From the NCBI RefSeq assembly GCF_030758955.1, contig NZ_CP132360.1, forward strand, positions 1,331,315 to 1,395,314: a DNA stretch of 64,000 nucleotides, in the 5' to 3' direction. This DNA comes from Agrococcus beijingensis (GTDB lineage: Bacteria; Actinomycetota; Actinomycetes; Actinomycetales; Microbacteriaceae). Positions 1-28,912 of this stretch are shown piece after piece; the first letter of the stretch is position 1, and each line of letters opens with the position of its first letter. The position numbers were made by a program, and so were the translations under genes. The notes beneath the pieces were generated by a model, which worked only from the letters and a program-made list of their open reading frames with translations, was not told the DNA's origin and did not search any database.

Positions 1-168
1 GCTCAGGTGCGGGAGGCGCCAGTCAGGTGCGGGAGGCGCCAGTCAGGCGCGGGAGGCGCCGCTCAGGTGCGGGAGGCGCCAGTCAGGCGCGGGAGGCGCC
101 GCTCAGGTGCGGGAGGCGCCAGTCAGGTGCGGGAGGCGCCAGTCAGACGCGGGAGGCGCCACTCGACG
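1..168 (+). repeat. 20-bp tandem repeat array with GGCGCC core
   Basis: Eight consecutive 20-bp units (1-160) plus a degenerate ninth, consensus RSTCAGGYGCGGGAGGCGCC, differing at only a few positions. The array may continue to the left of the window. It lies just 3' of the stop codon of the minus-strand reductase gene ending at 196. The same unit in reverse complement forms a second array at 27481-27700, again directly 3' of a stop codon. A period of 20 is not a multiple of three and no ribosome site is seen, so I treat it as non-coding. Confidence 0.9.
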
Positions 169-195
169 GGCAGGCGGGGCGGGGCGGGCGGGGGG

Positions 196-858
196 TCAGG
201 CGGAGTCGCCGTCGCGCTCGTCGACCATCTGCTCCTTGCCGTCGATCACCGCGAAGGTCGCCGTGGTGAACGGCGTCGGCACGAGCGTCATCGCGACGCA
301 CCCGTTCGTGGCGACCCGCGCATCCAGCACCTGGAACCCCGTCGGGCCGGCGCCCTCGAACACCCGCTTGCCCGAGCCGATCACCTTCGGCACCACGATC
401 AGCCGCAGCTCGTCGATGAGCGACTCGGCCAGCAGTGTCTGCAGCAGCTGCCACGAGCCGTGCACCTGCAGCTCGCCCTCGCCTGCCGCCTTCAGGTCGC
501 GGATGCGCTGCGGCACGTCGGTGGAGAACACCGACGCCGTGTGCTCCCACGGGGCGTCGCCGGCCGACAGCGTGCCCGAGACGACGTGCTTCGGCATCGC
601 GTTCAGCCGCGCCGCCACCAGGTCGTCGGGATCGGTGACCTGCGGCCAGTAGTCGGCCATCATGTCGTAGGTGGTGCGGCCGAACAGCAGCGCATCGGTC
701 TTCTTGAACCAGCCGTCCACGGTCTCGGCGACCACGTCGTCGAAGATCGTGGCACCCCATCCGCCCCACCGGAAGCCGCCCGAGGTGTCCTCCTCGGCAC
801 CGCCCGGACCCTGCATGACGCCGTCGAGCGTCATGAACTCGTGCGCGACCAGTCGCAT
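196..858 (-). CDS. RibD C-terminal/dihydrofolate reductase-fold protein
   Basis: 220 residues, the normal size for stand-alone RibD_C/DHFR-fold proteins of the YyaP/YwjB type, presumably cytoplasmic NAD(P)H-dependent reductases of unknown substrate. The N-terminus MRLVAHEFMTLDGVM matches the family's usual opening, GRTTYD at residues 60-65 is the typical GR.TYE-like segment, and the C-terminal half carries VVPKVIGSGKRVFEG. The ATG at 858 is preceded by GAGGAGG at good spacing. It is transcribed away from the membrane-gene pair upstream, separated by about 120 bp, and its stop is followed by the 20-bp repeat array. It is not a true folA: the family has no proven physiological reaction. Family assignment is confident, function is not. 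Confidence 0.88.
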   Translation of the reverse strand: MRLVAHEFMTLDGVMQGPGGAEEDTSGGFRWGGWGATIFDDVVAETVDGWFKKTDALLFGRTTYDMMADYWPQVTDPDDLVAARLNAMPKHVVSGTLSAGDAPWEHTASVFSTDVPQRIRDLKAAGEGELQVHGSWQLLQTLLAESLIDELRLIVVPKVIGSGKRVFEGAGPTGFQVLDARVATNGCVAMTLVPTPFTTATFAVIDGKEQMVDERDGDSA

Positions 859-978
859 CCGTCCTCCTCGTCGAGGCAGCGGCGCGCTCCTGGGCGCGCG
901 CCGCGGCAGGTTCGAGCATGCTCGCGCGCCACGGCAGCCGCAAGGGGTGCGCCGCGACGCGCGCGCTCTGCGAGGCGT

Positions 979-1470
979 CTATGCGATTACTCCCGGTCGA
1001 AGGTCGGTCGTCGCGGGACCGGCTGCGACGGGGAGGGTTCGAGGCCACTTCCAGGCGGAGCGCAGGATGAAGGCGAGCAGGATCACTTCCAGCCCGAGGC
1101 CGAGCACGTAGAAGGACATCCACTCCTGGCCGACCTGGCCCACGGCGTTGAAGGCCGCGAAGGGGATCTGCACGGAGGCGGCGACGAGGTTGGTGATGCG
1201 ATTGGCCCGGGCGGGCAACGCCATCGAGAGCACGATCATGGCGATCGGGATCGCCAGCAGCGTCAGCGCCGTGATCGCCCAGGTCGGGGTGATGTCGAAC
1301 TGCCAGACGACGCCGGCGAGGATGTCGTCGACGACGCCGGGCTTGTAGAAGGCGAGGATGTCGACGTAGGCGTAGAGGAGCACGAGGCTCGTCCACGCTG
1401 CGGCGAGCTTGGCCTGCACGGGGATCGTGGGGCTCTCGAGCAGGCTGGGGGTCTTCGATCGGATGGTCAT
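979..1470 (-). CDS. Small four-helix membrane protein (DUF6326-like)
   Basis: 163 residues with about four predicted membrane segments: roughly 25-45 (WTSLVLLYAYVDILAFY), 60-82, 88-110 and 118-140. The pattern resembles the DUF6326 family of small actinobacterial membrane proteins, whose role is unknown. Its ATG overlaps the stop of the upstream gene by 4 bp (1467-1470), so the two are almost certainly translated from one message. Both lie divergent from a TetR repressor whose promoter region carries a ladder of GTAC half-sites, so expression is probably derepressed by a TetR ligand. The DUF number is from memory of the family and less certain than the membrane topology. Confidence 0.8.
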   Translation of the reverse strand: MTIRSKTPSLLESPTIPVQAKLAAAWTSLVLLYAYVDILAFYKPGVVDDILAGVVWQFDITPTWAITALTLLAIPIAMIVLSMALPARANRITNLVAASVQIPFAAFNAVGQVGQEWMSFYVLGLGLEVILLAFILRSAWKWPRTLPVAAGPATTDLRPGVIA

Positions 1471-2300
1471 CGCTGCTTCCTTCGAGTGGAGCGGTCCGTC
1501 CGCCGGATCGGCGATCGGTCTGTGCGGTCATGCGGATGGGTCGAGTCGTTCTCGTCGGTCGTCGCGTCGGCGGGGAGGTCGACCGCTCGAGCGCGCAGCA
1601 GCCGCATGCCGGTCACCAGCAGCCACACGAGCCAGGCCGCGACGCCGGGCAGCCCCACGAACAGGAGCGCCGAGCCGTCCGCGATCGCGAAGCTGGCCAG
1701 CCCGGCGGCGAGCAGCAGCGCTCCCCCGGCCACGCCGAGCACGCGCTGCCATGGCGGCGCGAGCCGGCTGGCATGCGCCGCCAGCGCAGCGCCGATGAAG
1801 GTGGTGCCGAGCGCCGGCAGCGCGAGCGCGAACGCCGCTGCGTGCAGCTGCCAGACGAGCTCGAACAGCGGGCTCGGCTCGGCGAGGTCGCGGGCGGCCA
1901 GCACGGTGCCGATCCACAGGACGCTGTAGAGCGCGAAGACCGCCGAGAGCACCGCAGCGGCCGCGACCGCGAGGCGCGACCAGTCCGCACCCGCACCCCC
2001 GCGACGCGCGACGAGCCCGTGGAGGCCGGTCACGAACCCGAGCAGCAGCGGCACGTGCAGCGCCTCCTGGCCGACCGCGATCGCGACCACGACCGGGTTC
2101 TGCGCGTGCCAGGCGAGCACCTCCTCGATCGGGTCGCCGTAGCCGGGAGGGCCCGTCGCTGCGAACATCCCGTTCTGGATCGCCATCGACGTCGCGAGCG
2201 CGATCGCCGTCACGCCGACGACCCGCAGCGTCGCCAGCCCGGGCGGGCTCGCCCCCGGCTCCACCGGCGCCTCGCCGTTCCATCGCTGTTCGATTCCCAC
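1467..2300 (-). CDS. Polytopic membrane protein of unknown function
   Basis: 277 residues. After a short cytoplasmic N-terminus there are about six to seven hydrophobic segments between residues 25 and 240, then a charged Arg/Asp-rich tail of about 35 residues. The topology recalls DUF4386-like actinobacterial membrane proteins, but I see no catalytic or transport motif. The start is GTG at 2300, with GGAGG 5 bp upstream; no better start lies nearby. It is first in a two-gene unit with the DUF6326-like gene (4-bp overlap) and divergent from the TetR gene at 2412, with only about 110 bp between the two starts. Regulation by that TetR is therefore likely. Confidence 0.82.
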   Translation of the reverse strand: MGIEQRWNGEAPVEPGASPPGLATLRVVGVTAIALATSMAIQNGMFAATGPPGYGDPIEEVLAWHAQNPVVVAIAVGQEALHVPLLLGFVTGLHGLVARRGGAGADWSRLAVAAAAVLSAVFALYSVLWIGTVLAARDLAEPSPLFELVWQLHAAAFALALPALGTTFIGAALAAHASRLAPPWQRVLGVAGGALLLAAGLASFAIADGSALLFVGLPGVAAWLVWLLVTGMRLLRARAVDLPADATTDENDSTHPHDRTDRSPIRRTDRSTRRKQR

Positions 2301-2326
2301 GGAATCCTCCTGGCCCTAGACAGTTC

Positions 2327-2376
2327 GTACACCGTACGTCGTACGCTGTACGAGACACTATTGTCGTACGCTGTAC
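2327..2376. promoter_or_regulatory. Ladder of GTAC half-sites, probable TetR operator
   Basis: Between the divergent starts at 2300 and 2412 the tetramer GTAC occurs at 2327, 2334, 2341 and 2348, exactly every 7 bp, and again as a pair at 2366 and 2373. Every pair has the form GTAC-N3-GTAC, and GTACGCTGTAC occurs twice (2341-2351, 2366-2376). Self-complementary half-sites with fixed spacing are what a dimeric repressor would bind. The position suggests autoregulation of the TetR gene and control of the membrane-protein pair. No other use of this spaced motif was noticed in the window. Confidence 0.72.
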
Positions 2377-2411
2377 TGGTGTCAAGCATTCGAGCGGGCG
2401 AGGAGAGACCG

Positions 2412-3086
2412 GTGCCAGCGAAGCGGCAACGCAAGGTCGCATCAGACTCGGGCCTGAGCAAGCGACGGGTGGTGGCCGAGGCCATCCGGCTGGCCGACGA
2501 CGAGGGCGCCGACGGATTGAGCATGCGTCGGCTGGCCAGCGAGCTCGGCGCAGGCGCGATGTCGCTCTACCACTACGTGGCGGGCAAGGAGGAGCTGCTG
2601 GACGCCATGGTCGACGTCGTGTTCGACGAGATCGAGCTCCCGCCCGAAGGGACCGACTGGCAGTCGGCGATGCGACGACGAGCGGCATCCGCCCGACAGG
2701 TGCTCGCACGTCACCCCTGGGCGATCGGCCTGATGGAGTCGCGGACCTCGGCCGGGCCCGCGAACCTCCGCCACCACGAGGCGGTCACCGCCTGCCTGCG
2801 GAAGGCTGGCTTCCCCGTGCTGATGGCGACGCACGCCAACTGGCTGCTCGACAGCTATGTGTACGGCTTCGCGCTGCAGGAGGCGAGCCTGCCGTTCGAC
2901 ACCGCAGAGGAGCTCGCGGGCATGGTCGAGGGCATCTATCTGCCCCAGCTTCCTCCTGACGAGTTCCCCTACCTCAACGAGTCTGCCGCGGCGCTCGCCG
3001 CCGCCGGCTTCGACCCGGCGGCGCAGTTCGACTTCGGCCTCGACCTCGTGCTGGCCGCCCTCGAGCCCCTGCGAGCCGCTGCGTAG
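2412..3086 (+). CDS. TetR-family transcriptional regulator (TetR_C-type)
   Basis: 224 residues from GTG 2412. The N-terminal 60 residues form the TetR helix-turn-helix (SMRRLASELGAGAMSLYHYV, with the SLYHYV recognition-helix signature). The C-terminal part, residues about 80-215, resembles the TetR_C ligand-binding domain of tetracycline-repressor relatives. GTG 2412 is chosen because AGGAG stands about 7 bp upstream; an in-frame GTG at 2379 would lie inside the operator ladder. It is divergent from the membrane-protein pair at 979-2300 and probably represses both promoters. The ligand is unknown. The similarity of its C-terminal half to antibiotic-responsive TetRs does not prove an antibiotic role. 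Confidence 0.88.
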   Translation: MPAKRQRKVASDSGLSKRRVVAEAIRLADDEGADGLSMRRLASELGAGAMSLYHYVAGKEELLDAMVDVVFDEIELPPEGTDWQSAMRRRAASARQVLARHPWAIGLMESRTSAGPANLRHHEAVTACLRKAGFPVLMATHANWLLDSYVYGFALQEASLPFDTAEELAGMVEGIYLPQLPPDEFPYLNESAAALAAAGFDPAAQFDFGLDLVLAALEPLRAAA

Positions 3087-3146
3087 CGACGATCGCTGGC
3101 GGCTCGCCACGCGATCCGAGAATCAGGAGGTCGGCCCAGGTCTGCC

Positions 3147-4157
3147 TCAGGCGGTCAGCAGCCGCACGAGGTCGGTGCGCGGGATCTGCATCGCAGACGG
3201 CAGTGCCGGATCGATCAGCACGCCGTCGACGTGCGTCATCGCCTGCAGCAGCGACAGCAGCATCTCGTGCGACAGCAGCATCGGCTCGCCCTCCAGGCCG
3301 AACGCCCGCCACGACGCCATGTCGAGGAACACCGGCAGCAGCCGACGGTCGCCGTCGACCGCGATGCGCGGCTGCGCGCCGTCGACCGGGATCGCGACCG
3401 AGGTGCGCCGCAGGCCGAGCACGACCGCGACCTCGTCGCCGGCGGTGAGCCCGGCCCGCACGAGCGCGACCGCGTCACCGCTACCGCCACCGTTCGGTGC
3501 GGCCGAAGGGATCGTCATGGGGCTCCGTTCCTCCGCGCCAGAGGACGGGCCGACCGGCTGCGCCGGCCCGCCAGCTGCCGCGGCCCGGCGCGCCTGACGG
3601 CGCGCGATCGCCAGCCAGGTCACGGGCCCGGCCGCCCAGCCGATCAGCGTCGCGGAGGCGATCGAGAGCACCACCCAGATCGCGGCCACGATCCAGAAGG
3701 CGACCACGCCGGTCAGCAGCGTCACGAGACCCAGCAGCAGGCTCGACAGGCCAGAGAGCACCGCCTGGATCGCGGTGCCGAGCAGGGCACCGCGCGCCGT
3801 GACCGCGCCCGCTCCCGCGACGCCGGCCCGACGCATCCGCCCCGCCGAGAGGTGCGTGCCGAGCCAGATCGAGCCGCCCGCGACGAGCAGCAGAGCCAGC
3901 ACGATCGGCAGCGCCCACCAGAGGTCGGGGCGCTCAGCCCAGGCCACGACCTCGCGGCCCCAGTCGGCCTGGCCGAGCAGATCGATGATCGCCGCGCGCA
4001 CGATGAGCAGCACGATGCCGACGACCACGAGCCCCCACAGCAGCGCCGCGCCGCCCGCGACGAACGACATGCCGATCGCTCCCGCCGAGCGCACCGCGGC
4101 ACGCTGCGCGGCATCGAGCGGGTCGAGCCGGGGCGTCCGGGGCCCGCGGCGGCTCAT
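3147..4157 (-). CDS. Membrane protein with C-terminal SseB-like domain
   Basis: 336 residues. Residues about 25-190 contain four hydrophobic segments (for example SFVAGGAALLWGLVVVGIVL). A linker rich in Ala/Gly/Pro leads to a soluble domain at about 230-336 with RLLPVFLDMASWRAF and the pattern of SseB-like domains found in actinobacterial secretion-associated and hypothetical proteins. The ATG at 4157 overlaps the stop of the upstream gene by 4 bp, so it is the last cistron of a three-gene operon. An internal in-frame ATG at 3518 preceded by GGAGG could produce the soluble domain alone as a 123-residue protein. No function is known. Confidence 0.78.
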   Translation of the reverse strand: MSRRGPRTPRLDPLDAAQRAAVRSAGAIGMSFVAGGAALLWGLVVVGIVLLIVRAAIIDLLGQADWGREVVAWAERPDLWWALPIVLALLLVAGGSIWLGTHLSAGRMRRAGVAGAGAVTARGALLGTAIQAVLSGLSSLLLGLVTLLTGVVAFWIVAAIWVVLSIASATLIGWAAGPVTWLAIARRQARRAAAAGGPAQPVGPSSGAEERSPMTIPSAAPNGGGSGDAVALVRAGLTAGDEVAVVLGLRRTSVAIPVDGAQPRIAVDGDRRLLPVFLDMASWRAFGLEGEPMLLSHEMLLSLLQAMTHVDGVLIDPALPSAMQIPRTDLVRLLTA

Positions 4158-5425
4158 GCGCCGGCGGCCGGGGCCGAGCGCGGGGCACCGCGCAGCGCCA
4201 CCTGCGCGAGCTCCTCCTCGTCGCGGGCGCGAGCCGCGGCCTCCTCAGCCGCAGCGAGCGCCCGGAAGTCGACGGGCGGGCGCGCGGTGGTGAGGAACAT
4301 CCAGCCGAAGGCCATGCCGACGAGGCCGGTGAGCAGCACCGCCATCGCCAGCAGCCCGAACAGGGTCGACCACATCGAGCCGACCGTCAGCGACGACGAG
4401 CTGCTCGCGAGGAGGCTTCCGACGCCGAACAGGAGCGCACCCGGCCAGTAGACGACGCCGAACACGCCGGTCGCCGCCGTCGTGCACAGCCACGCCAGCC
4501 ACGCCGAGCGGTGCGGCTTCGCCAGCCCGGCCGACCTCGCCCAGAAGGCGCTGAGCACCCAGCCGAGCGCGAGCACCATGCCGCCGATCAGGGCGCCGAT
4601 GATCACGGTCGCCCAGACCCGGTCGGGCGTCGTCCAGAGCGCCACGACCGACGTGAAGGAGTCGGCGTCGATGTCGGTGACGGAGTCGCCGGAGAGGTGC
4701 AGCAGGAACGCGAAGCCCACCACGAGCACGAACGCCGTCAGCAGGTGCGTGGCCAGCGCCATGACGGTCTGGCCGATCCAAGAGCTGAGCAGCGCGACAC
4801 GCTTCTGCTTGCTGCTCCAGGTGACGCGGGGCATGGGCAGGAGCATGGGCATCGGCGGCGCATAGCCGCCGGGGGCGTACGGGCCCAGCGCGTACGGACC
4901 CTGTGGGTACGCACCCTGCGAATACGGGCCCGGGATGGGCGGGGCGTAGGTCGGGAGCTGCGGGTACGGATGCTGCGGGTGCGGTCCGGGCGGATACGGC
5001 CCCTGCGGATACGGTCCCGGACCCTGCCCCGCCGGATCCGCCACGACCGGCTGCCCGTAGGGCGCCCCGCCGTAGACCATTCCGTAGGGCCCCGGCTGCC
5101 ACTGCGGCGGCACGAAGCGCGACGGCATCGAGGCGGCGATCGCCGGGCGCATGCCGGGCGGCAGCGCCGCTCCCCCGGACGACCCGGCGCCGGGGTTCGC
5201 GACCATCTGCATGACCGGCGGACCGAGCGCGGCGCGCTCGCGACGCATCCGCGCCCGCTCCTGTGCCCGACTCTCGATGGCCGTCGTCGGCACGAGCGCA
5301 TCGCGTGCCGGCGCCGAGTCCGGCCGGAGCGCCTTCGCTCGACCCGCCGCAGCCGCGCGTGCGGCAGCATCGCCGGGCACCGGGGTGTCGGTGCCCGGCG
5401 GCGGCGGCGCAGCGGGATCGGTCAT
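4154..5425 (-). CDS. Membrane protein with Pro/Tyr/Gly-rich cytoplasmic region
   Basis: 423 residues from ATG 5425. The N-terminal half (about 1-210) is low complexity, with many PYPQGPYPPGP-like repeats, so probably disordered. The C-terminal half (about 220-395) has four hydrophobic segments ending in a charged coiled tail (EEAAARARDEEELAQ). Such P/Y/G-rich extensions are common on actinobacterial cell-envelope membrane proteins such as DUF805 and DUF4190 members. It sits between two other membrane genes, overlapping the next one by 4 bp and starting 25 bp after the previous stop. The start was set to ATG 5425 because the longer open frame upstream is Arg/Ser-rich shadow sequence. Function unknown. 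Confidence 0.8.
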   Translation of the reverse strand: MTDPAAPPPPGTDTPVPGDAAARAAAAGRAKALRPDSAPARDALVPTTAIESRAQERARMRRERAALGPPVMQMVANPGAGSSGGAALPPGMRPAIAASMPSRFVPPQWQPGPYGMVYGGAPYGQPVVADPAGQGPGPYPQGPYPPGPHPQHPYPQLPTYAPPIPGPYSQGAYPQGPYALGPYAPGGYAPPMPMLLPMPRVTWSSKQKRVALLSSWIGQTVMALATHLLTAFVLVVGFAFLLHLSGDSVTDIDADSFTSVVALWTTPDRVWATVIIGALIGGMVLALGWVLSAFWARSAGLAKPHRSAWLAWLCTTAATGVFGVVYWPGALLFGVGSLLASSSSSLTVGSMWSTLFGLLAMAVLLTGLVGMAFGWMFLTTARPPVDFRALAAAEEAAARARDEEELAQVALRGAPRSAPAAGA

Positions 5426-5450
5426 GCGGGCGTCAGGGTCTCTGCGGGGC

Positions 5451-6308
5451 TCAGCGCGCGGCAGCCTCGGGCGCGCCGGTGACGACCGTCGCGCGGAACA
5501 CCGACGCCATCCACCACCAGACGAGGATGCCGGTGGCCACCGCGATCGCGACCGAGAGCACCAGGAAGAGCAGCACGCCGAAGATCGCGTTCGCCACCAC
5601 GGCCGAGACGCCGCCATCGCCGAACTGGAAGAACAGGCCGCCCAGCGCGCCCGCCGCGGCCTGCAGCACGAACGATAGACCGAGCCCCATCGGCACGGCG
5701 GTGAGCGTCACGAGCACCGGGTGGAACACCTGGTGCGCCCGCAGCACCAGCCACGACAGCAGCAGTCCGCCGAGCAGCATGACCGCGCCGATGATGCTCA
5801 GCCAGAACGACACGTTGCCGAAGGTGGTCGGGTCGACGGCGGTGATCTGCTGGTCGAGGTCGCGCGCGGTGGCCTCGCTGAAGAGGCTCGTGAAGGCGAC
5901 GATGATCGTCTTGAAGACGGTCGTGAGGTACCAGGCGCCGATCGGCACGGCGAGCGTGATGAGGCCGAGCGTCACGAGCGGCAGGCCCAGCGCACCGGCG
6001 ATCGCGGCGCCGCGGCGCTCGCGCTTGCCGAGCTTGGGGCGCTGCACCTGCACGGTCTCGACGCTGACGGGGCCGTTGCGGATGCGGTCGACCGCCTCCG
6101 CGCGCTCGTCGCGCTCGTCGATCACCGTCGTGGGCGCGTCTGCGGAGCGCTCGGCCAGGGGCGTCGACACGCGCTGCGCCGCCACGGAGCCCGTCGCGGG
6201 AGCGCTCGCGCGCATGGGGCGCGTCTCGCCGTCGTCGACGGGCAGGGGGATGGGCGCTGATGCGTCGCGCTGGACGGGCCGGGGCCGCGGGGTCTCTTCC
6301 ACGGGCAC
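5451..6308 (-). CDS. Integral membrane protein, first of three-gene operon
   Basis: 285 residues. A hydrophilic N-terminal 100 residues is followed by four hydrophobic segments (about 103-135, 168-190, 203-228 and 240-270). No recognised domain. It begins at GTG 6308, only 32 bp after the hspR stop at 6341, so read-through from the dnaK operon is possible, though I see neither a clear internal promoter nor a terminator in that gap. A second in-frame GTG lies two codons downstream. The following two genes also encode four-helix membrane proteins with disordered extensions, suggesting a membrane complex. The start codon is the least certain element. Confidence 0.75.
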   Translation of the reverse strand: MPVEETPRPRPVQRDASAPIPLPVDDGETRPMRASAPATGSVAAQRVSTPLAERSADAPTTVIDERDERAEAVDRIRNGPVSVETVQVQRPKLGKRERRGAAIAGALGLPLVTLGLITLAVPIGAWYLTTVFKTIIVAFTSLFSEATARDLDQQITAVDPTTFGNVSFWLSIIGAVMLLGGLLLSWLVLRAHQVFHPVLVTLTAVPMGLGLSFVLQAAAGALGGLFFQFGDGGVSAVVANAIFGVLLFLVLSVAIAVATGILVWWWMASVFRATVVTGAPEAAAR

Positions 6309-6340
6309 ATCATGGCACCCGTCGCGCCGCCGAGCCCGGA

Positions 6341-6772
6341 TCAGCGGGTGGGACCGCGCCAGAGGACGACGGAGCCGGGCTTCGAGGGGCGCGCGCCGGC
6401 GCGCAGCGTCTGGATGCCCGCCGAGCCCGCCGCGAAGATGCGGCGTCCCTGCTGCTGCATCACCGCATCCGCCAGTGCCGTCTCGAGCTCGCGAACGCGG
6501 GCGCGCAGCTCGCGGTTCTCGTCGCTCATGTCGAGGATGCGGCGGATGCCCTCGAGCGAGACGCCCTCGCTCGAGAGCAGCTGCACCTGCCGCAGCCGCC
6601 CCACGTCGCGCATCGAGTAGCGACGCGTGTTGCCGGCGGTGCGGGCGGGCTCGACCAGCCCCAGCCGGTCGTACTGCCGCAGCGTCTGCGCGTGCAGGCC
6701 GGCGAGCTCGGCGGCCGCCGCGATCGAGAAGATCGGCGACGTCTCGTCGAGGCCCTCCGGCTGCCCGAGCAT
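6341..6772 (-). CDS. hspR: HspR, MerR-family heat-shock repressor
   Basis: 143 residues. A MerR-type helix-turn-helix covers about residues 15-85, with HAQTLRQYDRLGLVEPART and RRYSMRDVGRLRQVQLLSSE, which are classical HspR sequence. A short coiled coil (ENRELRARVRELE) follows. HspR binds HAIR inverted repeats (CTTGAGT-N7-ACTCAAG) with DnaK as co-repressor; such sites lie upstream of dnaK (10562-10611) and upstream of the clpC-like gene (59269-59289). The ATG overlaps the dnaJ stop by one base (TGATG), so it is the last gene of dnaK-grpE-dnaJ-hspR, the normal actinobacterial order. It therefore closes an autoregulatory loop. Confidence 0.96.
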   Translation of the reverse strand: MLGQPEGLDETSPIFSIAAAAELAGLHAQTLRQYDRLGLVEPARTAGNTRRYSMRDVGRLRQVQLLSSEGVSLEGIRRILDMSDENRELRARVRELETALADAVMQQQGRRIFAAGSAGIQTLRAGARPSKPGSVVLWRGPTR

Positions 6773-7740: not shown

Positions 7741-7788
7741 GCGCCACCCCCTCCCGCGCCTTCGGCGCCCGGTCGATCTTTGCCGGAT

Positions 7789-8565: not shown

Positions 8566-8567
8566 GG

Positions 8568-11817: not shown

Positions 11818-11818
11818 G

Positions 11819-14123: not shown

Positions 14124-15062
14124 ATGCCCGCTGCCGCACCGCTGCCCGAGTCACTCGCCGACGGCCCGTTCTCCATCGCCGCAGCGAGGTCGGCAGGGGT
14201 GCCGGCGTCGCGCCTGCGCAGGGCCGACCTCGTGCGGCCCTGGATCGGCGTGCGCAGCACCGTCGCACCCCACGACCTGCCGTCGCACGCCGCTGCCTTC
14301 GCCCAGCGCATGCGCACCGGCCACGTCTTCGCGGGCGTGACCGCGGCCCGGCTGTGGGGGATGCCGGTCGCATCCCTGTGGAAGCCCGAGGAGCCCTTGG
14401 TCGTCGGCGTGCCCGCGGGGACGCCGCGCACCCGCGTGACCGGCGTGCGCACCCGCGAGTTCGATCCGCGGCGGCTCGGACCGACCGAGCTCGACGGCCT
14501 GCCGATCCTCGCGCCCGCTGCGACCGTCATGAGCCTCGCCCGCGACACCGAGCACCGCGATCTGGTCGCGCTCGTCGACGCGCTCGTGACGCCATCGCGG
14601 TGGTACCCCGACCTGCGGCTGCCGAAGCGCGCCTACGCCGACATCGCGGCGCTGGCGGCCTTCGCCCGGCGGTGCCGAGGGCTGCACGGCGCAGCCGCGT
14701 TCAGCGCAGCGGTCGACGACGCCCGGGCGGGCGCCGACTCTCCGCAGGAGACGCGCACCAGGCTGGTCATCGTGGCTGCCGGGCTGCCGGAGCCGGTGCT
14801 GCAGCACCCGATCCGGGCCGATGGCCGTCGGATCGCCGTCGTCGATCTCGCCTACCCGCACTGGCGCATCGCCATCGAGTACGAGGGCGAAGGCCACCTG
14901 AAGGATCCCGCGCAATGGGCGAAGGACATCCGCCGCTACGAGCGGCTCGAAGCCCTCGGCTGGATCGTGATCCGCGTCACCAAGTCGGATCTGACCGGCG
15001 ACGCGGCCGCCCTGACCCAGCGCGTGCGCGCCGCCGTCGCTCGCCGCAGCACCGCCGACTGA
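14124..15062 (+). CDS. DUF559-like / Vsr-fold endonuclease-like protein
   Basis: 312 residues from ATG 14124. The N-terminal 60 residues look like a winged-helix segment (FSIAAARSAGVPASRLRRAD), as in AbiEi-type proteins. The C-terminal 90 residues carry the DUF559 restriction-endonuclease-like pattern: VVDLAYPHWRIAIEYEGEGH, then KDIRRYERLEALGWIVIRVT. Acidic residues D and E with ...YEGEGH are plausible metal ligands. This architecture is very common and multi-copy in high-GC actinobacteria; its role is unknown. It is monocistronic and flanked by GGTACC inverted repeats. Weak similarity to toxin-antitoxin AbiEi is possible but no toxin partner is adjacent. Confidence 0.82.
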   Translation: MPAAAPLPESLADGPFSIAAARSAGVPASRLRRADLVRPWIGVRSTVAPHDLPSHAAAFAQRMRTGHVFAGVTAARLWGMPVASLWKPEEPLVVGVPAGTPRTRVTGVRTREFDPRRLGPTELDGLPILAPAATVMSLARDTEHRDLVALVDALVTPSRWYPDLRLPKRAYADIAALAAFARRCRGLHGAAAFSAAVDDARAGADSPQETRTRLVIVAAGLPEPVLQHPIRADGRRIAVVDLAYPHWRIAIEYEGEGHLKDPAQWAKDIRRYERLEALGWIVIRVTKSDLTGDAAALTQRVRAAVARRSTAD

Positions 15063-17348: not shown

Positions 17349-17366
17349 CGCCTGCCCCGACCGCGG

Positions 17367-19125: not shown

Positions 19126-19179
19126 GGAGCAACCGTAGTGCCAACGGTTAGCGTTGACGCACGAGCGAAGGAGCAGTCC

Positions 19180-19836: not shown

Positions 19837-19996
19837 GGCCCAGTGCCGAGGGCCCAGGGCCGACGCCCCAGTGCCGACGGCGAGGGCTGACCCCGAGGGC
19901 GGTCGGATGCCGAGCGCCGTGATCTGAGGCGAGCCCTGCGGAAACGTTGGGCGCCGGATCCTGGAACTCCGTGCGGTCGAGCGTCAAGATATCCGC

Positions 19997-22639
19997 ATGG
20001 CAGGGTCGGATCGACCCGTGATCCGCACCCCAGACCAGCGGATCCGGGTGTTCGTGAGCTCGACGCTGCGCGAGCTCGCCGATGAGCGCCGCGCGGTGCG
20101 CGCGGCGGTCGAGCGGCTGCGCCTCGCGCCGGTCATGTTCGAGCTGGGTGCGCGGCCGCATCCGCCCCGCGCGCTGTATCGCTCGTACCTCGCGCAGAGC
20201 GATGTCTTCGTCGGCATCTACGGCGACAGCTACGGCTGGGTCGCGCCCGACGAGGAGATCTCGGGGCTCGAGGACGAGTACCGGCTCGCGCCGGCGCGCA
20301 TGCCGAAGCTCATCTACATCCGCGAGGCCGGGCAGCGCGATGCCCGGCTGCAGGAGCTGATCGCGCGCATCCAGGCCGACGACACCGCCGCCTACCTGCC
20401 GTTCCGCACCGCCGAGGAGCTCGAGGAGCGGGTCGCCGACGACCTCGCGACCCTGCTCGCCGAGCGCTTCGACGAGTCGCAGCGGCCGCCCGACGGCGGC
20501 GCCGCCGAGATCCCGCCGACGCCCGACTCGCGCGTGCCGGTGCCGTACACGACGACGATCGGTCGCGAGCGCGAGATCGCCGAGGTGCGGGCGCTGCTCG
20601 AGCGCCGCGCCGACCGGGTGGTGAGCCTCATCGGCCCTGGCGGGGTCGGCAAGAGCCGCCTCGCCATCGAGGTGGCGCGCGCGAGCGACGACCTCTTCCC
20701 CGACGGCCGCTACTTCGTGCCCCTCGAGGGCGTGCTCGAGCCGGCGCTGCTGCTGCCGACGATCGCGTACGTGCTGGGCATCCGCGACAACGGCGAGGCG
20801 GCGCTCGAGGAGCGCATCGCGCGCGCCCTCGCCGACCGCCGCGTGCTGCTGGTGCTCGACAACTTCGAGCAGATCGTCGAGGCGGCGCCGCTGCTCGTGC
20901 GGCTCTACGACGTGGCGCCGACGACCGCGTTCCTCGTCACCAGCCGCGCGGTGCTCCGCATCCGCGGCGAGCGCGTGTTCGAGGTGGGCTCGCTGACCGT
21001 GCCGGCCGACGACGCCGTCGACAGCGTCGACCGGGTGCTGCGCTCGACGGCCGCGGCGCTCTTCGTCGACCGCGCGCAGGCGGTGAAGCCCGGCTTCGCG
21101 CTGACCGACGAGAACGCGGCCGCGGTCGCCGACATCTGCCGCAGCCTCGAGGGGCTGCCGCTGGCGATCGAGCTGGCCGCGGCGAAGGTGCGGCTGCTGA
21201 GCGCGCAGGGCATCGCCCAGCGGCTCGAGCAGAGCCTGCCGCTGCTGACCGCGGCGGTGCGCGACCTGCCAGAGCGGCACCGCACGATGCGCGCGACCAT
21301 CGACTGGAGCGTGAGCCTGCTGCCCGACGAGCAGCGCGACCTGCTCGAGGATCTCGGCGTCTTCGCCCGGCAGTTCTCGCTCGAGGCGGTCGAGGCGGTG
21401 GGCGTCGGCCGCTCGTGGGAGGGCCGGGCGCTCGAGGCGATCACCGCGCTCATCGACGGCTCGCTCGTGAAGCAGACCGAGGCGGGCGGCGGCGCCGTGC
21501 TGTCGCTCCTGTCGATCGTGCGCGAGTACGCGATCGGCCGGCTCAAGGAGCGCGGCGAGGCGGCCCGCATGCGCGCCGCGCACGCCGACTACTACAGCGC
21601 GCTCGTGGCACGGGTGGCCCCAGGGCTGCGCGGCGCCGGCGCGAGCGGCCCCGGGCAGGGCGAGGCGGTGCTGCAGCTCGGGCTCGAGCTGCCCAACCTG
21701 CGCGCCGCGGTGCGGCACCTCGTGCACACCGACCGCCTCGACGAGGCGGGTGACTTCGCCTGGCGGCTGCTCATCTACTGGTGGATCGCCGGGTTCTTCG
21801 GCGAGGTGCGCGTGTGGATGCTCGAGCTGCTCGACAAGGATCAGCCGATCAGCGCCCACACGCGCGCGGTCGCCTGGTTCTTCTCGCTCTGGAGCGAGAT
21901 GTGGCAGCGCCCCACCGAGAGCGTCGTCGCAGGGCTCGGCGAGTGCGTGCGGCTCTTCGCCGAGAGCGGCGACGACGACGCGGTCGCCATGAGCACGGCC
22001 GCGCGCGCCACCGCCCGGCTGCAGCTGCCGCTGCCCGACCTCGACACCGCCGAGCGCGAGCTGGGCGAGGCGGTCGAGCTGCTGCGCGGCCAGGGCAACG
22101 CCTGGGCCGAGGCGATCACCGAGGTCTCGCGCGGACGGCTCGCGTGGCTGCGCGGCCGCACCGGCGACGCACAGGCGCGCTTCGACCGCGCCACGCAGGT
22201 TGCCGGGGCCAGCGGCGACCTGTTCACCCTCTCGGTCGCCGGCAACCACCAGAGCCGGCTGCAGCTGGTGCGGGGCGAGATCGATGCGGCGGAAGGCGGA
22301 TGCGTCCGCACGCTGCTCGTGTCGGTGCGGTTGCACTTCGAGGAGGGGGTCGCCTACGCCCTCGAGGGGCTGTGCGCGGTCGCGGCCGCGCGCGGCGACG
22401 GCGAGCGGGCAGGCACGCTGGCAGCTGCCGCATCGGCGATCCGGCGTCGCATCGGCGTCTTCGACGCCGAGGTCTTCTCGGTGCACACCCCGCAGCTCGA
22501 CGCCATGCGCGCCGCCGACCCGGAGGCCGTCGCCGCCGGCGAGCGGCGCGGCGACGAGCTCTCGGTCGCGGAGGCGATCGCGCTCGCGCTGCCCGACGGC
22601 GAGCGGCAGCGGGTCGCGGCCGCGCTGGCCCGCTGGTGA
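19997..22639 (+). CDS. STAND ATPase with N-terminal DUF4062 domain
   Basis: 880 residues. Residues about 15-110 form a DUF4062 domain (RVFVSSTLRELADERRAVRA, then SDVFVGIYGDSYGW), a TIR/nucleoside-deoxyribosyltransferase-like fold seen at the N-terminus of signal-transduction ATPases. An NB-ARC-type ATPase follows with Walker A GPGGVGKS (213-220), Walker B VLLVLDNFE (283-291), LVTSR (313-317) and GLPLAIEL (386-393). The C-terminal half (about 500-880) is helical, TPR-like. No HTH or BTAD domain is present, so it is not a standard SARP/LuxR regulator. ATG start, isolated gene. NLR-like sensor or defence role is inference. Confidence 0.9.
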   Translation: MAGSDRPVIRTPDQRIRVFVSSTLRELADERRAVRAAVERLRLAPVMFELGARPHPPRALYRSYLAQSDVFVGIYGDSYGWVAPDEEISGLEDEYRLAPARMPKLIYIREAGQRDARLQELIARIQADDTAAYLPFRTAEELEERVADDLATLLAERFDESQRPPDGGAAEIPPTPDSRVPVPYTTTIGREREIAEVRALLERRADRVVSLIGPGGVGKSRLAIEVARASDDLFPDGRYFVPLEGVLEPALLLPTIAYVLGIRDNGEAALEERIARALADRRVLLVLDNFEQIVEAAPLLVRLYDVAPTTAFLVTSRAVLRIRGERVFEVGSLTVPADDAVDSVDRVLRSTAAALFVDRAQAVKPGFALTDENAAAVADICRSLEGLPLAIELAAAKVRLLSAQGIAQRLEQSLPLLTAAVRDLPERHRTMRATIDWSVSLLPDEQRDLLEDLGVFARQFSLEAVEAVGVGRSWEGRALEAITALIDGSLVKQTEAGGGAVLSLLSIVREYAIGRLKERGEAARMRAAHADYYSALVARVAPGLRGAGASGPGQGEAVLQLGLELPNLRAAVRHLVHTDRLDEAGDFAWRLLIYWWIAGFFGEVRVWMLELLDKDQPISAHTRAVAWFFSLWSEMWQRPTESVVAGLGECVRLFAESGDDDAVAMSTAARATARLQLPLPDLDTAERELGEAVELLRGQGNAWAEAITEVSRGRLAWLRGRTGDAQARFDRATQVAGASGDLFTLSVAGNHQSRLQLVRGEIDAAEGGCVRTLLVSVRLHFEEGVAYALEGLCAVAAARGDGERAGTLAAAASAIRRRIGVFDAEVFSVHTPQLDAMRAADPEAVAAGERRGDELSVAEAIALALPDGERQRVAAALARW

Positions 22640-22658
22640 GCGCTCCGGGCGCGCGGGG

Positions 22659-23768
22659 TCAGGCCGTGAAGGTGGTGCGCAGCAGCTTCGCGAGCGCCGG
22701 CACGCCCTGCGCGAGCGCGGCGCGCTGCCGTGCGGCGCCGGTGCCCTCCGCACGGATGCGCTCCACCACCGCTGCCACGCGCGACCAGTCTCCCGACGTC
22801 TCCAGCGCCGCTCGCGCGACCGTCAGCATCCGCTCGATGACGATCCAGGCGGGGGCTGCGGATGCGGTGGTCGGGTCGACGAGGTCGTCTGCCAGCCCGT
22901 GCCGGGCCGCGTGCCACACCGCGGCGTCGACATGCTCCGCGTGGGTCGCGGCGCGGGCGTGCGGCAGCTCGCCGGCGATCGCCGCTTCGACGAGCGCGCG
23001 GCTGAGCAGCGCGATCGCGACGGTCTCGTCGGCGGTGAGCTGCGCGTCGAACAGCCGCAGCTCGATGGTCGGGTAGCGCTCGGCGAGCCGCATCATCCAG
23101 GCGAGCGACCCGGTGTCGAGGGTCGTGCCGAGCCCCACGAGCGCGCGCGTGCGGCGGTCGTAGTCGGCGGCGTCGGCGAACGCGGGCGGCACCGACGCGG
23201 TCGTGAACCGCCGCCCGACGATCGTGCGCCAGCTGGCGAAGCCGGTGTCGGCGGCGTCGAAGAAGGGCGAGTTCGCCGTCAGCGCGATGAGCGGCGCGAG
23301 CCACGGCCGCAGCGCCCGCATGGCCGCGACGCCCTCGTCGCGCGAGTCGATGCCGACGTGCACGTGCAGGCCCTGGATGCGGTGGTCGACCCGCACCGCG
23401 CCCAGCTCCTCGTCGAAGCGCAGGTAGCGATCGCCCTCGGCGGTGCGCGAGCCGCCGCAGCCGTGCGTGGTGCCGACGCTCGCGGCGATCAGGCCCCGGC
23501 GCCCCGCGGCCTGCGCGAGGCCGCGACGGAACACCCCCACCACCCGGTCGGCGGTCGCCGCGTCGACGAGCACCGGCGACGAGAACTCCACCTGGGCGCG
23601 CAGGTACTCGTGCCCCACCCAGTCGACGGCGGCGTCGCTCTCGACCAGCTCGGCGATCACCGCGTCGGCCACGTCGACCGGCGACAGCCGCTCGGGCTCG
23701 AGCAGGATGACCTCCTCCTCGACCCCGAACGTGCGGAGCGAGCGCCGAGTCGGCTGCAGCAGCGTCAT
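22659..23768 (-). CDS. Glutamate-cysteine ligase-like carboxylate-amine ligase (YbdK type)
   Basis: 369 residues, GCS2/YbdK family length. Begins with FGVEEEVILLEPERLSPVDV, the conserved GVEEE motif for ATP/Mg binding, followed by GHEYLRAQVEFSS and QGLHVHVGI, all typical of the family. E. coli YbdK has weak gamma-glutamyl-cysteine synthetase activity; actinobacteria use mycothiol, so the real substrates here are unknown. The ATG at 23768 is divergent from ku (23859). Some YbdK-like ligases act in peptide or antibiotic tailoring, but no such genes are adjacent. Confidence 0.9.
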   Translation of the reverse strand: MTLLQPTRRSLRTFGVEEEVILLEPERLSPVDVADAVIAELVESDAAVDWVGHEYLRAQVEFSSPVLVDAATADRVVGVFRRGLAQAAGRRGLIAASVGTTHGCGGSRTAEGDRYLRFDEELGAVRVDHRIQGLHVHVGIDSRDEGVAAMRALRPWLAPLIALTANSPFFDAADTGFASWRTIVGRRFTTASVPPAFADAADYDRRTRALVGLGTTLDTGSLAWMMRLAERYPTIELRLFDAQLTADETVAIALLSRALVEAAIAGELPHARAATHAEHVDAAVWHAARHGLADDLVDPTTASAAPAWIVIERMLTVARAALETSGDWSRVAAVVERIRAEGTGAARQRAALAQGVPALAKLLRTTFTA

Positions 23769-23858
23769 GGCCCGGATTGTCCCCCACCGTGCTGAGCATC
23801 TGCTCCGACTTCGAGGGCAGCACTGGCGTGCAAGGCGCCTTCGGGGGACAGTAGGCCC

Positions 23859-24839
23859 ATGCGAGCGATCTGGAAGGGTTCCATCACCTTCGGCCTGGTG
23901 AACGTGCCGGTGAAGCTGTACTCCGCGACCGAGGAGCACGACCTGCAGCTGCACCAGGTGCACGACGCCGACGGCGGGCGCATCCGCTACGAGCGCAAGT
24001 GCGAGGTGTGCGGCAAGAAGGTCGCCTACGAGCACATCGACAAGGCCTACGACGACGGCGAGCAGACCGTCGTGCTCACCGACGACGACTTCGCCGCGCT
24101 GCCCGCCGAGCGCAGCCGCGAGATCGAGGTGCTCGAGTTCGTGCCGAACGAGCAGATCGACCCGATCCTGCTCGATCGCAGCTACTACCTCGAGCCCGAC
24201 TCGAAGAGCCCGAAGGCCTACGTGCTGCTGCGCACCGTGCTCGAGGACACCGCCCGCACCGCCGTGGTGCGCATGTCGCTGCGGCAGCGCACGCGGCTCG
24301 CGACGATGCGGGTGCGCGACGACGTGCTGCTGGTGCAGACGATGCGCTGGGCCGACGAGGTGCGCGCGGCCGAGTTCGCGAGCCTCGACACCGACATCGC
24401 GGTCGGCAAGCGCGAGCTCGAGCTGGCCCGCTCGATCGTGCGCGAGCTCGAGGCCGACTTCGACCTCGAGCAGCACGTCGACGAGTACCAGCAGCAGCTG
24501 CGCACGCTGGTCGAGGCGAAGCTCGAGCAGGGCGACGCGCTCGACACCGCCGCCACCTTCGGCGAGACCGACGAGGGCGAGGGCGCCGAGGTCATCGACC
24601 TGCTCGAGGCGCTGCAGCGGTCGGTCGACAAGAAGAAGGCGGATGCCTCCGGTGGCGCGTCGTCCGGCGGCTCGGCCGAGCGGGCGCCCGCGAAGGCCGC
24701 CGCGAAGCCGGCCGCCAAGAAGGCGGCGGCGAAGTCGCCCGCGAAGAAGGCCGCGGCGAAGAGCGGCACCGCGAAGGCCGAAGCGGACGGAGACGAGAAG
24801 CCGGCCAAGAAGCCCGCCGCGAAGAAGCGGTCGGCCTGA
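23859..24839 (+). CDS. ku: Ku, bacterial non-homologous end-joining protein
   Basis: 326 residues. Opens MRAIWKGSITFGLVNVPVKL, the universal bacterial Ku signature. The core Ku barrel runs to about 260, with GKKVAYEHIDKAY and EQIDPILLDRSYYLEP. The C-terminal 55 residues are Lys/Ala repeats (KKAAAKSPAKKAAAK), the DNA-binding extension of actinobacterial Ku. Homodimeric Ku threads onto double-strand ends and recruits LigD. It ends one base before the ligD start, so the pair is one operon. Divergent from the YbdK-like gene. Confidence 0.97.
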   Translation: MRAIWKGSITFGLVNVPVKLYSATEEHDLQLHQVHDADGGRIRYERKCEVCGKKVAYEHIDKAYDDGEQTVVLTDDDFAALPAERSREIEVLEFVPNEQIDPILLDRSYYLEPDSKSPKAYVLLRTVLEDTARTAVVRMSLRQRTRLATMRVRDDVLLVQTMRWADEVRAAEFASLDTDIAVGKRELELARSIVRELEADFDLEQHVDEYQQQLRTLVEAKLEQGDALDTAATFGETDEGEGAEVIDLLEALQRSVDKKKADASGGASSGGSAERAPAKAAAKPAAKKAAAKSPAKKAAAKSGTAKAEADGDEKPAKKPAAKKRSA

Positions 24840-24840
24840 G

Positions 24841-27468
24841 ATGGCGGCCGCCGACCGGATCGTCGTCGGGGGCCGGAGCCTGCGCTTCACGAACCCCGAC
24901 AAGGTGCTGTACCCGTCGACCGGCACGACCAAGCGCGACGTGCTCGAGTACGTGCTGCGCGCATCCGCCGCCATCATCGCCCACGGCGGCGGGCGCCCCG
25001 TCACGCGCAAGCGCTGGCCGGAGGGGGTCGGCACCGAGCGGAAGCCCGGCGACCTGTTCTTCCAGAAGCAGCTCGAGCGGGGCGCGCCCGACTGGATCGA
25101 GACGGTCGAGCTGGAGCACAGCACCGGCCCGAAGTCGTACCCGGTGCTGTCGGAGCCGGCCGCGCTCGCCTGGATGGCGCAGATGGGCGCGCTCGAGCTG
25201 CACGTGCCGCAGTGGCGCATGCACGACGGCGAGCGGCAGCCGCCCGACCGGCTCGTGCTCGACCTCGACCCGGGCCCCGGCGCCGACCTCGACGACTGCG
25301 CGCAGGTGGCGCTGTGGGTGCGCGAGCTGCTCGTCGACATCGGGCTCGACCCGGTGCCGCTGACGAGCGGCAGCAAGGGCATCCACCTCTATGCCCGGCT
25401 CGACGGCACGGTCAGCTCGGAGCAGGCGAGCGAGGTCGCCCACCAGCTCGCCCGCTCGCTCGAGCAGCTGCACCCCGAGCTGATCGTGAGCGACATGGCG
25501 AAGGCGAAGCGGCAGGGCAAGGTGCTGATCGACTGGAGCCAGAACTCCGGCTCGAAGACGACCGTCGCGCCGTACTCGCTGCGCGGGCGGCCGCGGCCGA
25601 CTGTCGCCGCGCCCCGCACCTGGGACGAGGTCGAGGCGGGCGGGCTCGAGCAGCTCGAGTACACCGAGGTGCTCGAGCGGCTCGAGCGCGACGGCGACCT
25701 GATCGCCGCGCTCGACCCGCCGCCCGACCGGCTCGCGAAGTACCGCGGCATGCGCTCGGCGCACAGGACGCCCGAGCCGGTGCCGGCCGAGCCGCCGGTG
25801 CCGACCGACGGGCAGTCGTTCGTGATCCAGAAGCACCGGGCGAGCCGGCTGCACTACGACTTCAGGCTCGAGCGCGACGGCGTGCTCGTCTCGTGGGCGG
25901 TGCCGAAGGGGCCGCCGTCGACGCCGAAGCAGAACCGGCTCGCGGTGCACGTCGAGGATCACCCGCTCGAGTACGGCTCGTTCGAGGGCACGATCCCGAA
26001 GGGCGAGTACGGCGCCGGCGTCGTGGAGATCTGGGATGCCGGCACCTATGAGCTCGAGAAGTTCCGCGACGACGAGGTGATCGCGACGCTGCACGGCAGG
26101 CCCGACGGCGGGCTGGGCGGCGACCCCTACCGCTTCGCGCTGATCCGCACCGACGCCGAGCAGCGGTCGTGGCTGCTGCACCGCATGAAGGAGCAGGATG
26201 CCGAGCGCGACGCGCGGCTGAAGGGCTACGCGCCGAAGCGGGGTGCCGCGGGGGCCGATGCCGAGGGTGGCGCGGGCGACCCCGAGCCGGCGGCGGCTGC
26301 TGAGGGGGCGAGCGCTTCGGTGAAGACCGGCGCGAAGGCACCCGCGAAGCGCGGCGCGCGGGCCGCTGCGGCGCCGGTGCAGGCCGCTGGCAAGGGCGCC
26401 GCGAAGAGCGCCGCGAAGGGGTCAGCGACGACCGGCACCGCGACCCGCGCGAAGCTGGCGCCGAAGGACGAGCCGCCGATCGTGCTCTCGAAGGCGACCG
26501 GGCGCCGCAAGGGCGACCGGAGGACCGACCTGCGGCCGATGCTCGCGACGCAGGCCGAGGCATCCGACATCGACGACGAGCGCGAGTGGTCGTTCGAGGT
26601 GAAGTGGGATGGCTGGCGCGTGCTCGTGCAGCTGGGCGACCCGGTGCGGCTCGTCAGCCGCGGCGGGCAGGAGCTGTCTGCGGGCTTCCCCGAGCTGGTC
26701 GAGGCGCTGCCGGCGGCGGTCGGCACGGCCGATGCGGTGCTCGACGGCGAGATCGTCGTGCTGCGGCGCGGGGCGGCCGACTTCGCCGCACTGCAGCAGC
26801 GCGCTGGCCTCACCGGGCGCCCCGCCAAGAAGGCCGCTGCCGCGACGCCGGCGACGCTGATGCTCTTCGACCTGCTCGAGCACGAGGGCTCCCGCCTCAT
26901 CGACGAGCCGCTCGACCGGCGCCAGTCGCGGCTCGACGCGCTCGTGCACGAGAGCGCCCGCGTGCGCGTGTCGAAGCCGCTGCGCGGCTCGCTCGAGCGG
27001 ATCCTCGCGGCGACCGCCGAGGGCGGCATCGAGGGCGTGATGGCGAAGCGCCACGACAGCCGCTACCGCCCGGGCAAGCGCTCGGGCGACTGGCTGAAGC
27101 TCAAGCACGCGCAGACCCGCGAGGCGGTGGTGATCGGCTGGCTCGAGGGCAAGGGATCGCTCGCCGGCACCGTCGGCTCGCTGGTGCTGGCGCTGCCGGA
27201 CGACGAGGGGCGGATGCGCTACGCCGGCCGGGTGGGCACCGGATTCTCGGAGGCGGAGCGCAAGCGGCTGCGCGAGCGGCTCGTGGCTCGCCGGACCGCG
27301 CCGTCGGTCAGCGGGGTTCCCGCGGACGTGAGCCGACGCATCCACTGGGTCCGTGCCGTGGTGGCCGAGGTGGCGCACACCGAGCAGACCGAGTCGGGTG
27401 CGCTGCGGCACCCGGTCTGGCGGGGCCTGCGCCACGACAAGGCGCTCGCCGACCTGCGCCCCGACTGA
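24841..27468 (+). CDS. ligD: LigD, multifunctional NHEJ DNA ligase
   Basis: 875 residues, domain order polymerase/primase - phosphoesterase - ligase. The POL domain (about 1-300) has DLDP at 141-144 as catalytic acid pair. The 3'-phosphoesterase spans about 325-460 with RLHYDFRLE. After an Ala/Lys-rich linker (about 465-550) comes the ATP-dependent ligase, with nucleotidylated Lys588 in KWDGWR and motifs VLDGEIV, EGVMAKRHDSRYRPGKRSGD and WLKLK. ATG 24841 lies one base after the ku stop. It completes the two-component NHEJ pathway. The order differs from the ligase-first E. coli-type LigD of proteobacteria and matches mycobacteria. Its stop is followed at once by the second 20-bp repeat array. 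Confidence 0.97.
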   Translation: MAAADRIVVGGRSLRFTNPDKVLYPSTGTTKRDVLEYVLRASAAIIAHGGGRPVTRKRWPEGVGTERKPGDLFFQKQLERGAPDWIETVELEHSTGPKSYPVLSEPAALAWMAQMGALELHVPQWRMHDGERQPPDRLVLDLDPGPGADLDDCAQVALWVRELLVDIGLDPVPLTSGSKGIHLYARLDGTVSSEQASEVAHQLARSLEQLHPELIVSDMAKAKRQGKVLIDWSQNSGSKTTVAPYSLRGRPRPTVAAPRTWDEVEAGGLEQLEYTEVLERLERDGDLIAALDPPPDRLAKYRGMRSAHRTPEPVPAEPPVPTDGQSFVIQKHRASRLHYDFRLERDGVLVSWAVPKGPPSTPKQNRLAVHVEDHPLEYGSFEGTIPKGEYGAGVVEIWDAGTYELEKFRDDEVIATLHGRPDGGLGGDPYRFALIRTDAEQRSWLLHRMKEQDAERDARLKGYAPKRGAAGADAEGGAGDPEPAAAAEGASASVKTGAKAPAKRGARAAAAPVQAAGKGAAKSAAKGSATTGTATRAKLAPKDEPPIVLSKATGRRKGDRRTDLRPMLATQAEASDIDDEREWSFEVKWDGWRVLVQLGDPVRLVSRGGQELSAGFPELVEALPAAVGTADAVLDGEIVVLRRGAADFAALQQRAGLTGRPAKKAAAATPATLMLFDLLEHEGSRLIDEPLDRRQSRLDALVHESARVRVSKPLRGSLERILAATAEGGIEGVMAKRHDSRYRPGKRSGDWLKLKHAQTREAVVIGWLEGKGSLAGTVGSLVLALPDDEGRMRYAGRVGTGFSEAERKRLRERLVARRTAPSVSGVPADVSRRIHWVRAVVAEVAHTEQTESGALRHPVWRGLRHDKALADLRPD

Positions 27469-27480
27469 CCGCCCCTCCCC

Positions 27481-27700
27481 CACCTGACTGGCGCCTCCCG
27501 CACCTGACTGGCGCCCCCCGCACCTGACTGGCGCCCCCCGCACCTGACTGGCGGCTCCCGTGCCTGAGTGGCGGCTCCCGTGCCTGAGTGGCGCCTCCCG
27601 CACCTGAGCGGCGCCTCCCGCAGGCGAGTGGCGCCTCCCGCACCTGAGCGGCGCCTCCCGCAGGCGACTGGCGCCTCCCGCACCTGACTGGCGCCTCCCG
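27481..27700 (+). repeat. Eleven-unit 20-bp tandem array with GGCGCC core
   Basis: Eleven perfectly phased 20-bp units, consensus CACCTGACTGGCGCCTCCCG, begin at 27481, 12 bp after the ligD stop. This is the reverse complement of the unit at 1-168. In both loci the unit has the same orientation relative to the upstream gene's transcription. Variants alternate CACCTGA with CAGGCGA or TGCCTGA. It fills the 271-bp gap before the acyl-CoA dehydrogenase; nothing else was seen there apart from the start region after 27701. Confidence 0.92.

Positions 27701-27739: not shown

Positions 27740-28912
<1,173 letters not shown>

Follow-up and report, generated by a model that had tools for sequence, protein, structure and literature searches.

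Oriented 20-bp repeat arrays behind Agrococcus genes: a candidate polar barrier at gene ends

Background

Why should two unrelated genes of one bacterium be followed by the same tandem repeat, turned the same way with respect to each of them? The question is raised by a stretch of 64,000 nucleotides of Agrococcus beijingensis (contig NZ_CP132360.1, positions 1,331,315 to 1,395,314; hereafter the window), in which a preliminary description had noticed 20-bp arrays behind a reductase gene and behind ligD and had proposed a transcribed 3'-end element, a processing site or a protein-binding ladder. We find that these arrays belong to a repeat family of the genus that lies mostly behind genes, in a preferred orientation, with a constant phase and a conserved asymmetric core. 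Judging from the sequences, we tentatively favour the view, without holding it to be probable, that the arrays act as DNA, as protein-bound polar ladders that would insulate transcription leaving the gene. To our knowledge, it is not well understood how high-GC actinobacteria separate converging transcription. The open-licence literature in PubMed Central yielded no description of these repeats, which is not proof that there is none; the ladders could be a type of gene-end barrier not described before, or else a repeat family of an unusual sort.

Results

The arrays of the window and the genes beside them are as follows.

Array 1: 1..161, plus strand, core CGCCASTCA on the plus strand, that is, sense TGASTGGCG for the minus-strand gene ending at 196
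Gene before array 1: 196..858, minus strand, RibD C-terminal-domain (dihydrofolate-reductase-like) protein of 220 aa, stop at 196
Array 2: 27474..27700, minus strand, core CGCCASTCA on the minus strand, that is, sense for ligD
Gene before array 2: 24841..27468, plus strand, LigD with Prim-Pol, phosphoesterase and ATP-dependent ligase domains, 875 aa (start chosen by us)
Gene after array 2: 27740..28912, plus strand, acyl-CoA dehydrogenase family, beginning about 46 bp past the array

Both arrays consist of one 20-bp unit oriented alike relative to the preceding gene, and the two genes end at 196 and 27468, all as first described. Tandem Repeats Finder (TRF) returns array 1 as 3-161 (7.9 copies of 20 bp, 89% matches) and array 2 as 27474-27700 (11.4 copies of 20 bp, 86% matches), each free of indels, and the ligD stop codon (27466-27468, plus strand) is separated by about 6 bp from the first core-bearing unit of array 2. 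Directly left of the window start stands an N, and the DNA beyond it duplicates bases from window positions 1 to ~240, with a second copy of array 1 that is identical at 147 of 160 positions. This looks like an assembly join, which leaves the length of array 1 in doubt; it is probably one array doubled by the join.

Placement was read in 61 stretches of the A. beijingensis genome and of congeners, most of them fetched because they bear arrays, with gene boundaries drawn by our own codon-usage caller; 22 of 23 A. beijingensis flanking genes checked against Pfam have a match. Chaining by the core gave 101 array calls, of which 86, from nine genomes, were kept after removal of 15 repeat finds. 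De-duplication used the first 70 sense bases for the placement counts and the first 60 for the composition and mutual-information work, and one dropped call is the window's piece of array 1, because its start resembles that of the copy to the left of the join. Both neighbouring genes are known for 78 arrays, and 49 of these lie in convergent, 28 in co-directional and 1 in divergent gaps. Counted by gap, 30 of the 52 array-bearing gaps are convergent, 21 co-directional and 1 divergent (7, 6 and 1 in A. beijingensis) as compared to 20, 134 and 73, respectively, of the 227 gaps that carry no array in these stretches; with orthologous gaps left in, Fisher's test gives p 1e-13 for the convergent excess and p 5e-7 for the divergent deficit. 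For 64 of the 78 arrays the nearest gene end is a 3' end that the array faces, and 73 of all 86 face a 3' end at a median distance of 16 bp, 68 of them within 100 bp. One tRNA gene is followed, 69 bp on, by a sense-oriented array (L079); known RNA genes returned by an Rfam search of 13 loci are tRNA and tmRNA only.

The arms are also ordered with respect to one another. Opposed neighbours less than 400 bp apart follow the minus-then-plus order in 26 of 26 cases, as do those 400-1500 bp apart in 7 of 7. Single arms face the nearer gene in all 7 convergent cases and are in sense in 7 of 8 co-directional gaps, and one further single arm lies between divergent genes. The presence of arrays behind genes and in convergent gaps would suit a topological element, bound by gyrase or by a nucleoid protein, that would absorb positive supercoils at (convergent) gene ends, as has been proposed for the bacterial interspersed mosaic elements (BIMEs) of E. 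coli; one report has BIME-2 binding gyrase (PMC2817692). A supercoil sink requires no polarity, however, whereas the arms are polar, and we regard this explanation as very unlikely.

Units of the A. beijingensis genome give SCGCCASTCANNNNCGGGAG, in which the conserved part is CGCCASTCA, in sense TGASTGGCG. This part is asymmetric, and its core GASTGG(CG) returns every 20 bp, the spacing being exactly 20 in 235 of 241 steps between neighbouring cores (array 1 still counted twice). The earlier claim of a conserved unit stands for the core and falls for the GGCGCC palindrome, since several arrays read GGCGGC/GCCGCC: the eye-catching part of the unit is not the conserved one. When adjacent units are compared in register, the core differs 4.3 times less than the spacer (78 arrays; bootstrap 3.0-6.4), and the same test on TRF-defined arrays, still within stretches picked by the core, gives a spacer/core ratio of 3.9 (2.8-6.2); an earlier version, which chained units more tightly by the core, is left out of the ratio. 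The exact core is carried by 84 of 91 intergenic 20-bp TRF arrays, and its TGGCG part is better kept than TGA. Genome G015 (L126, L128) has 20-bp arrays whose own consensus carries a core with one or two mismatches, for example GACCGCTC, which suggests core drift.

These ratios bear on whether the arrays are merely neutral minisatellites, that is, slippage-prone repeats with occasional ectopic copying, tolerated where they harm neither promoters nor genes. A variable number tandem repeat would be expected to change uniformly along its unit, and the arrays do not. Equally unexpected would be the invariant order of closely opposed arms, the sense orientation of nearly all co-directional single arms and the scarcity of the core elsewhere: of 208 exact core matches in 186 kb of A. 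beijingensis DNA, a large share of which had been picked because of nearby arrays, 2 lie outside arrays as against 6.5 expected. A dispersed binding or uptake signal was rejected on the same count, as almost no single cores occur in the DNA examined. What speaks for neutrality is the fast turnover of units and sites, with the 20-bp array at the ligD locus present in 1 of 21 congeners examined and rpsT-holA arms in 7 of 15 closed gaps (one by eye), as well as the example of the repetitive extragenic palindromes (REPs), which one report likewise places mostly between convergent and co-directional genes (PMC3733652). On balance we hold neutrality to be rather improbable.

Turnover leaves the layout intact. 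At the polA locus the unit shifts from GGCGCCACTC to GTGGCCACTC in genome G014, and the core, the phase and the two-arm layout are kept. Over 12 positions, arms of the orthologous gaps listed differ by 2.74, arms of unrelated gaps by 3.59 and arms of the same stretch by 4.57. Same-stretch arms are less alike than random, as would follow from an avoidance of long perfect inverted repeats. Among 19 dyad middles, the sole matches are two stretch pairs between A. pavilionensis and A. lahaulensis, in which L093 and L095 are the same gap. The copying of ready-made dyads was rejected, as the middles are unrelated between most gaps and the arms of one stretch are more different than random.

The family is abundant in its host and narrow in its spread. 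In the 2.89-Mb A. beijingensis genome the 17-base unit, at up to 2 mismatches, has 117 matches versus 14 for a reversed-pattern control, and a two-core pattern at up to 3 mismatches has 239 versus 19; together with the placement behind genes, the preferred orientation and the phase, this bears out the view that the element is not random. The genome holds 21 arrays and about 250 core units (262 counted cores minus the doubled array 1), two arrays listed for L038 probably being a single arm that a stretch of N interrupts. In the GTDB contig collection, from which the window's own genome may be missing, exact three-core matches come from 29 stretches, every one of them Agrococcus. By a strict pattern, arrays occur in 14 of 24 congeners and, family-wide, in 4 of 398 genomes, all 4 congeners. 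The loose core CCASTC every 20 bp matches in 19 of the 24, a count that depends on the pattern, loose matches being barely above control in G003 (5 versus 4) and G015 (20 versus 18); in G015 there are 18 strict matches and none of the control. Order-wide, the loose core matches in 9 of 396 genomes, 2 of them congeners; of the 7 that lie outside the genus, some have plain short tandem repeats. In two genomes of other families of the order (G429, G473; L190-L193), period-20 arrays with a CCASTC core occur, by homology or by chance, and 2 of 3 such arrays in G429 face the 3' end of a minus-strand gene.

Do the arrays act as RNA? The sense orientation behind genes would fit an element of the 3' untranslated region that protects by hairpins, loads Rho or forms a ladder of stop codons, as would the UGA that, read from the consensus, occurs once in most units and, 20 not being a multiple of 3, closes all frames. 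Folding speaks against it: compared to dinucleotide shuffles, three arrays, one of them in both strands, give z of +0.36, +0.72, +0.33 (antisense) and +0.26. We therefore rejected RNA hairpins and palindrome pairing, the RNA of these three arrays being no more stable than shuffles and GGCGCC not being conserved. The pairing of neighbouring GGCGCC cores envisaged in the preliminary description finds no support in either result or in the dissimilarity of same-stretch arms. Nor is there an excess of C on the sense strand (C 0.368, G 0.377; C above G in 32 of 70 arrays), for which reason a Rho utilisation site was rejected. Mutual information is highest at neighbouring spacer positions within units and at the same position between adjacent units, and shows no complementary pattern within or between units. 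Moreover, one array follows a tRNA gene, TGGCG is kept better than the TGA that a stop ladder would need, and apparent terminators precede some arrays. Altogether, we give an RNA-level element very little credence.

The terminators themselves limit what the arrays could do. No intrinsic terminator (GC hairpin plus T-run) was found in 26900-28000, an interval that covers array 2 alone, and on this ground the array was rejected as such a terminator. In the rpsT-holA region, rpsT is present in 17 of 24 genomes and the gap is closed in 15; arms are called in 6 of these (G000, G016, G020, G014, G021, G018) and seen by eye in G023, and none are called in the other 8. By eye, a terminator-like hairpin follows rpsT and precedes the arms. 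At such loci, where hairpins come before the arrays, an array would be at most a back-up to termination.

Finally, we considered how the repeats might spread. The Y1 transposase (RAYT, PF01797) is missing from all 24 congeners in a search that was positive in 5 of 14 control genomes, and mobility driven by RAYT, as for REP doublets forming hairpins (REPINs), was rejected on this ground. Another gene drew attention post hoc. At the pdtaR-thioesterase-polA locus lies a gene matching DUF559 above and MTES_1575 below the Pfam cut-off, which in 11 genomes is flanked by two 20-bp arms, one minus and one plus, as defined by TRF, two of the plus arms carrying one core mismatch; G002, G009 and G003 are partial cases. 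In G006, G007 and G013, outward arms built of variant units also accompany relatives of 46-52% identity at other loci. This suggestive link raises the possibility of selfish repeats, in which a DUF559/MTES_1575-type endonuclease would have the GASTGG units as its putative targets. The gene with its outward arms would be the source and the gene-less arms amplified derivatives surviving where they do least harm, a logic like that of RAYT and REP with an unrelated enzyme, and such a system would build arms in the minus-then-plus order. Yet the mostly unrelated middles and the dissimilar arms of one stretch indicate that the dyads are not copies of one element; G006, G007 and G023 have the gene at a polA-type locus without arrays; 58 further stretches with DUF559-type relatives contain arrays in no case by the core and in one by TRF (a G006 case), as against 0 of 20 control stretches; and the polA locus counts as a single inherited instance. 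We think this origin unlikely. In G003 (L222) the polA-locus gene is split over two frames and has 20-bp arrays with mismatched cores on both sides. The window, too, contains a DUF559-type relative (14316-15032), 36% identical to the polA-locus gene, near which no array was found.

Further observations concern other repeats. At 60126-60300 a 17-bp array (GCGGGCGCCTCAGGCAC) stands directly behind a minus-strand gene (60295-61755). Twenty bp is therefore not the sole period behind genes, a qualification to the strict phasing first described, which holds for nearly all core steps. By eye this array shares words with the 20-bp unit, TCAGG and GGCGCC for instance, and it may be a sister family. At ~60020-60095 a long inverted repeat around GTGCAC (by eye) adjoins 13-bp tandem copies at 59955-60033. 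At the ligD 3' ends of congeners (L105-L122), several carry other repeats, such as CTGGTCGAG...GAGACC-like copies, at the position of array 2 (by eye).

Discussion

The gap pattern, the kept core and the phase favour a polar, protein-bound DNA ladder at gene ends over both a neutral minisatellite and an RNA element. In the ladder that we tentatively favour, each 20-bp unit would offer its GASTGG(CG) core to a sequence-specific protein and, as the units are about two helical turns apart, the bound proteins would line up on one face of the helix. RNA polymerase leaving the gene would meet a barrier, or insulator, that works in one direction and stands in reserve behind the usual terminator. On this view a convergent gap carries two arms that look each to its own gene, a co-directional gap mostly one that looks to the upstream gene, and a divergent gap hardly any. 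Where the arrays lie, how they are turned and ordered, their phase, their conserved core and their turnover between species can be read from the sequences; the binding of a protein, an action on DNA rather than RNA and the effect on transcription are inferred. The protein-binding ladder of the preliminary description remains, as far as sequence can tell, the best reading, while its transcribed 3'-end element and processing site are weakened by the hairpins that precede several arrays.

But several observations weigh against a polar gene-end barrier. Random placement with respect to gene ends and strand, the outcome that would have refuted the preliminary description, did not occur, yet 14 of the 78 arrays break the rule that the nearest gene end is a 3' end faced by the array, among them one A. 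beijingensis array between divergent genes. One arm lies upstream of a tmRNA gene (L081), contrary to this rule, and in G006, G007 and G013 arms also occur in the divergent gap upstream of a DUF559-type gene. Paired arms in co-directional gaps are in sense in 13 of 20 cases and antisense in 7. The placement counts contain orthologous gaps and are not fully independent, and in a convergent gap either orientation of an array faces some 3' end. Between stop codon and array, GC-rich terminator-like hairpins are seen by eye at several A. beijingensis gene ends, and the rpsT hairpin is a further such case. That the ligD ladder is found in a single congener means that single sites are dispensable.

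Oriented phased repeats behind genes, with units that change between species while core, phase and layout remain stable, would make gene-end barriers testable, and the repeat system offers a clean case of host function versus selfish spread. A wider version of the ladder reading strikes us as doubtful. In it, Agrococcus would mark its gene ends with a dedicated, fast-evolving polar barrier built of phased protein ladders, each converging gene having its own arm. Such a barrier would be the bacterial analogue of oriented terminator arrays, and a DUF559-type nuclease encoded between two arms might maintain or spread it.

Among described repeats, REPs and BIMEs come closest. They occupy the same place, but neither a conserved palindrome nor a RAYT gene was found here. 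Like REPs, BIMEs and REPINs, the arrays are extragenic, present in many copies, mostly downstream of genes and often opposed to a neighbour, and the family varies by species. Different from them, the Agrococcus core is no palindrome with a GTAG/CGTC tag, its units form head-to-tail 20-bp arrays instead of single REPs or alternating units, the congeners lack a Y1 transposase gene, and the many single genomic copies expected of such repeats are replaced by cores that lie nearly all within arrays. Intrinsic terminators between convergent genes share the location of the arrays and differ in their hairpin and T-run, which are absent around array 2, and in that arrays follow apparent terminators at several loci.

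Foldback transposons have two opposed arms of tandem units and unequal length, and so do the Agrococcus dyads, whose arms, however, are unlike in the spacer, whose middles are mostly unrelated and which are usually gene-free inside. Sal boxes, in turn, are 18-bp oriented terminator repeats; they are eukaryotic, belong to a single gene family and have an identified protein. In one report they are bound by TTF-1 downstream of mammalian rDNA and arrest forks from both sides (PMC5368702), so that their polarity is not a given. The likeness is at most that of repeated binding sites, putative in Agrococcus and with no homology claimed, directly behind a transcription unit. With the exceptions given above (14 of 78), the Agrococcus arrays are likewise oriented repeats behind transcription units.

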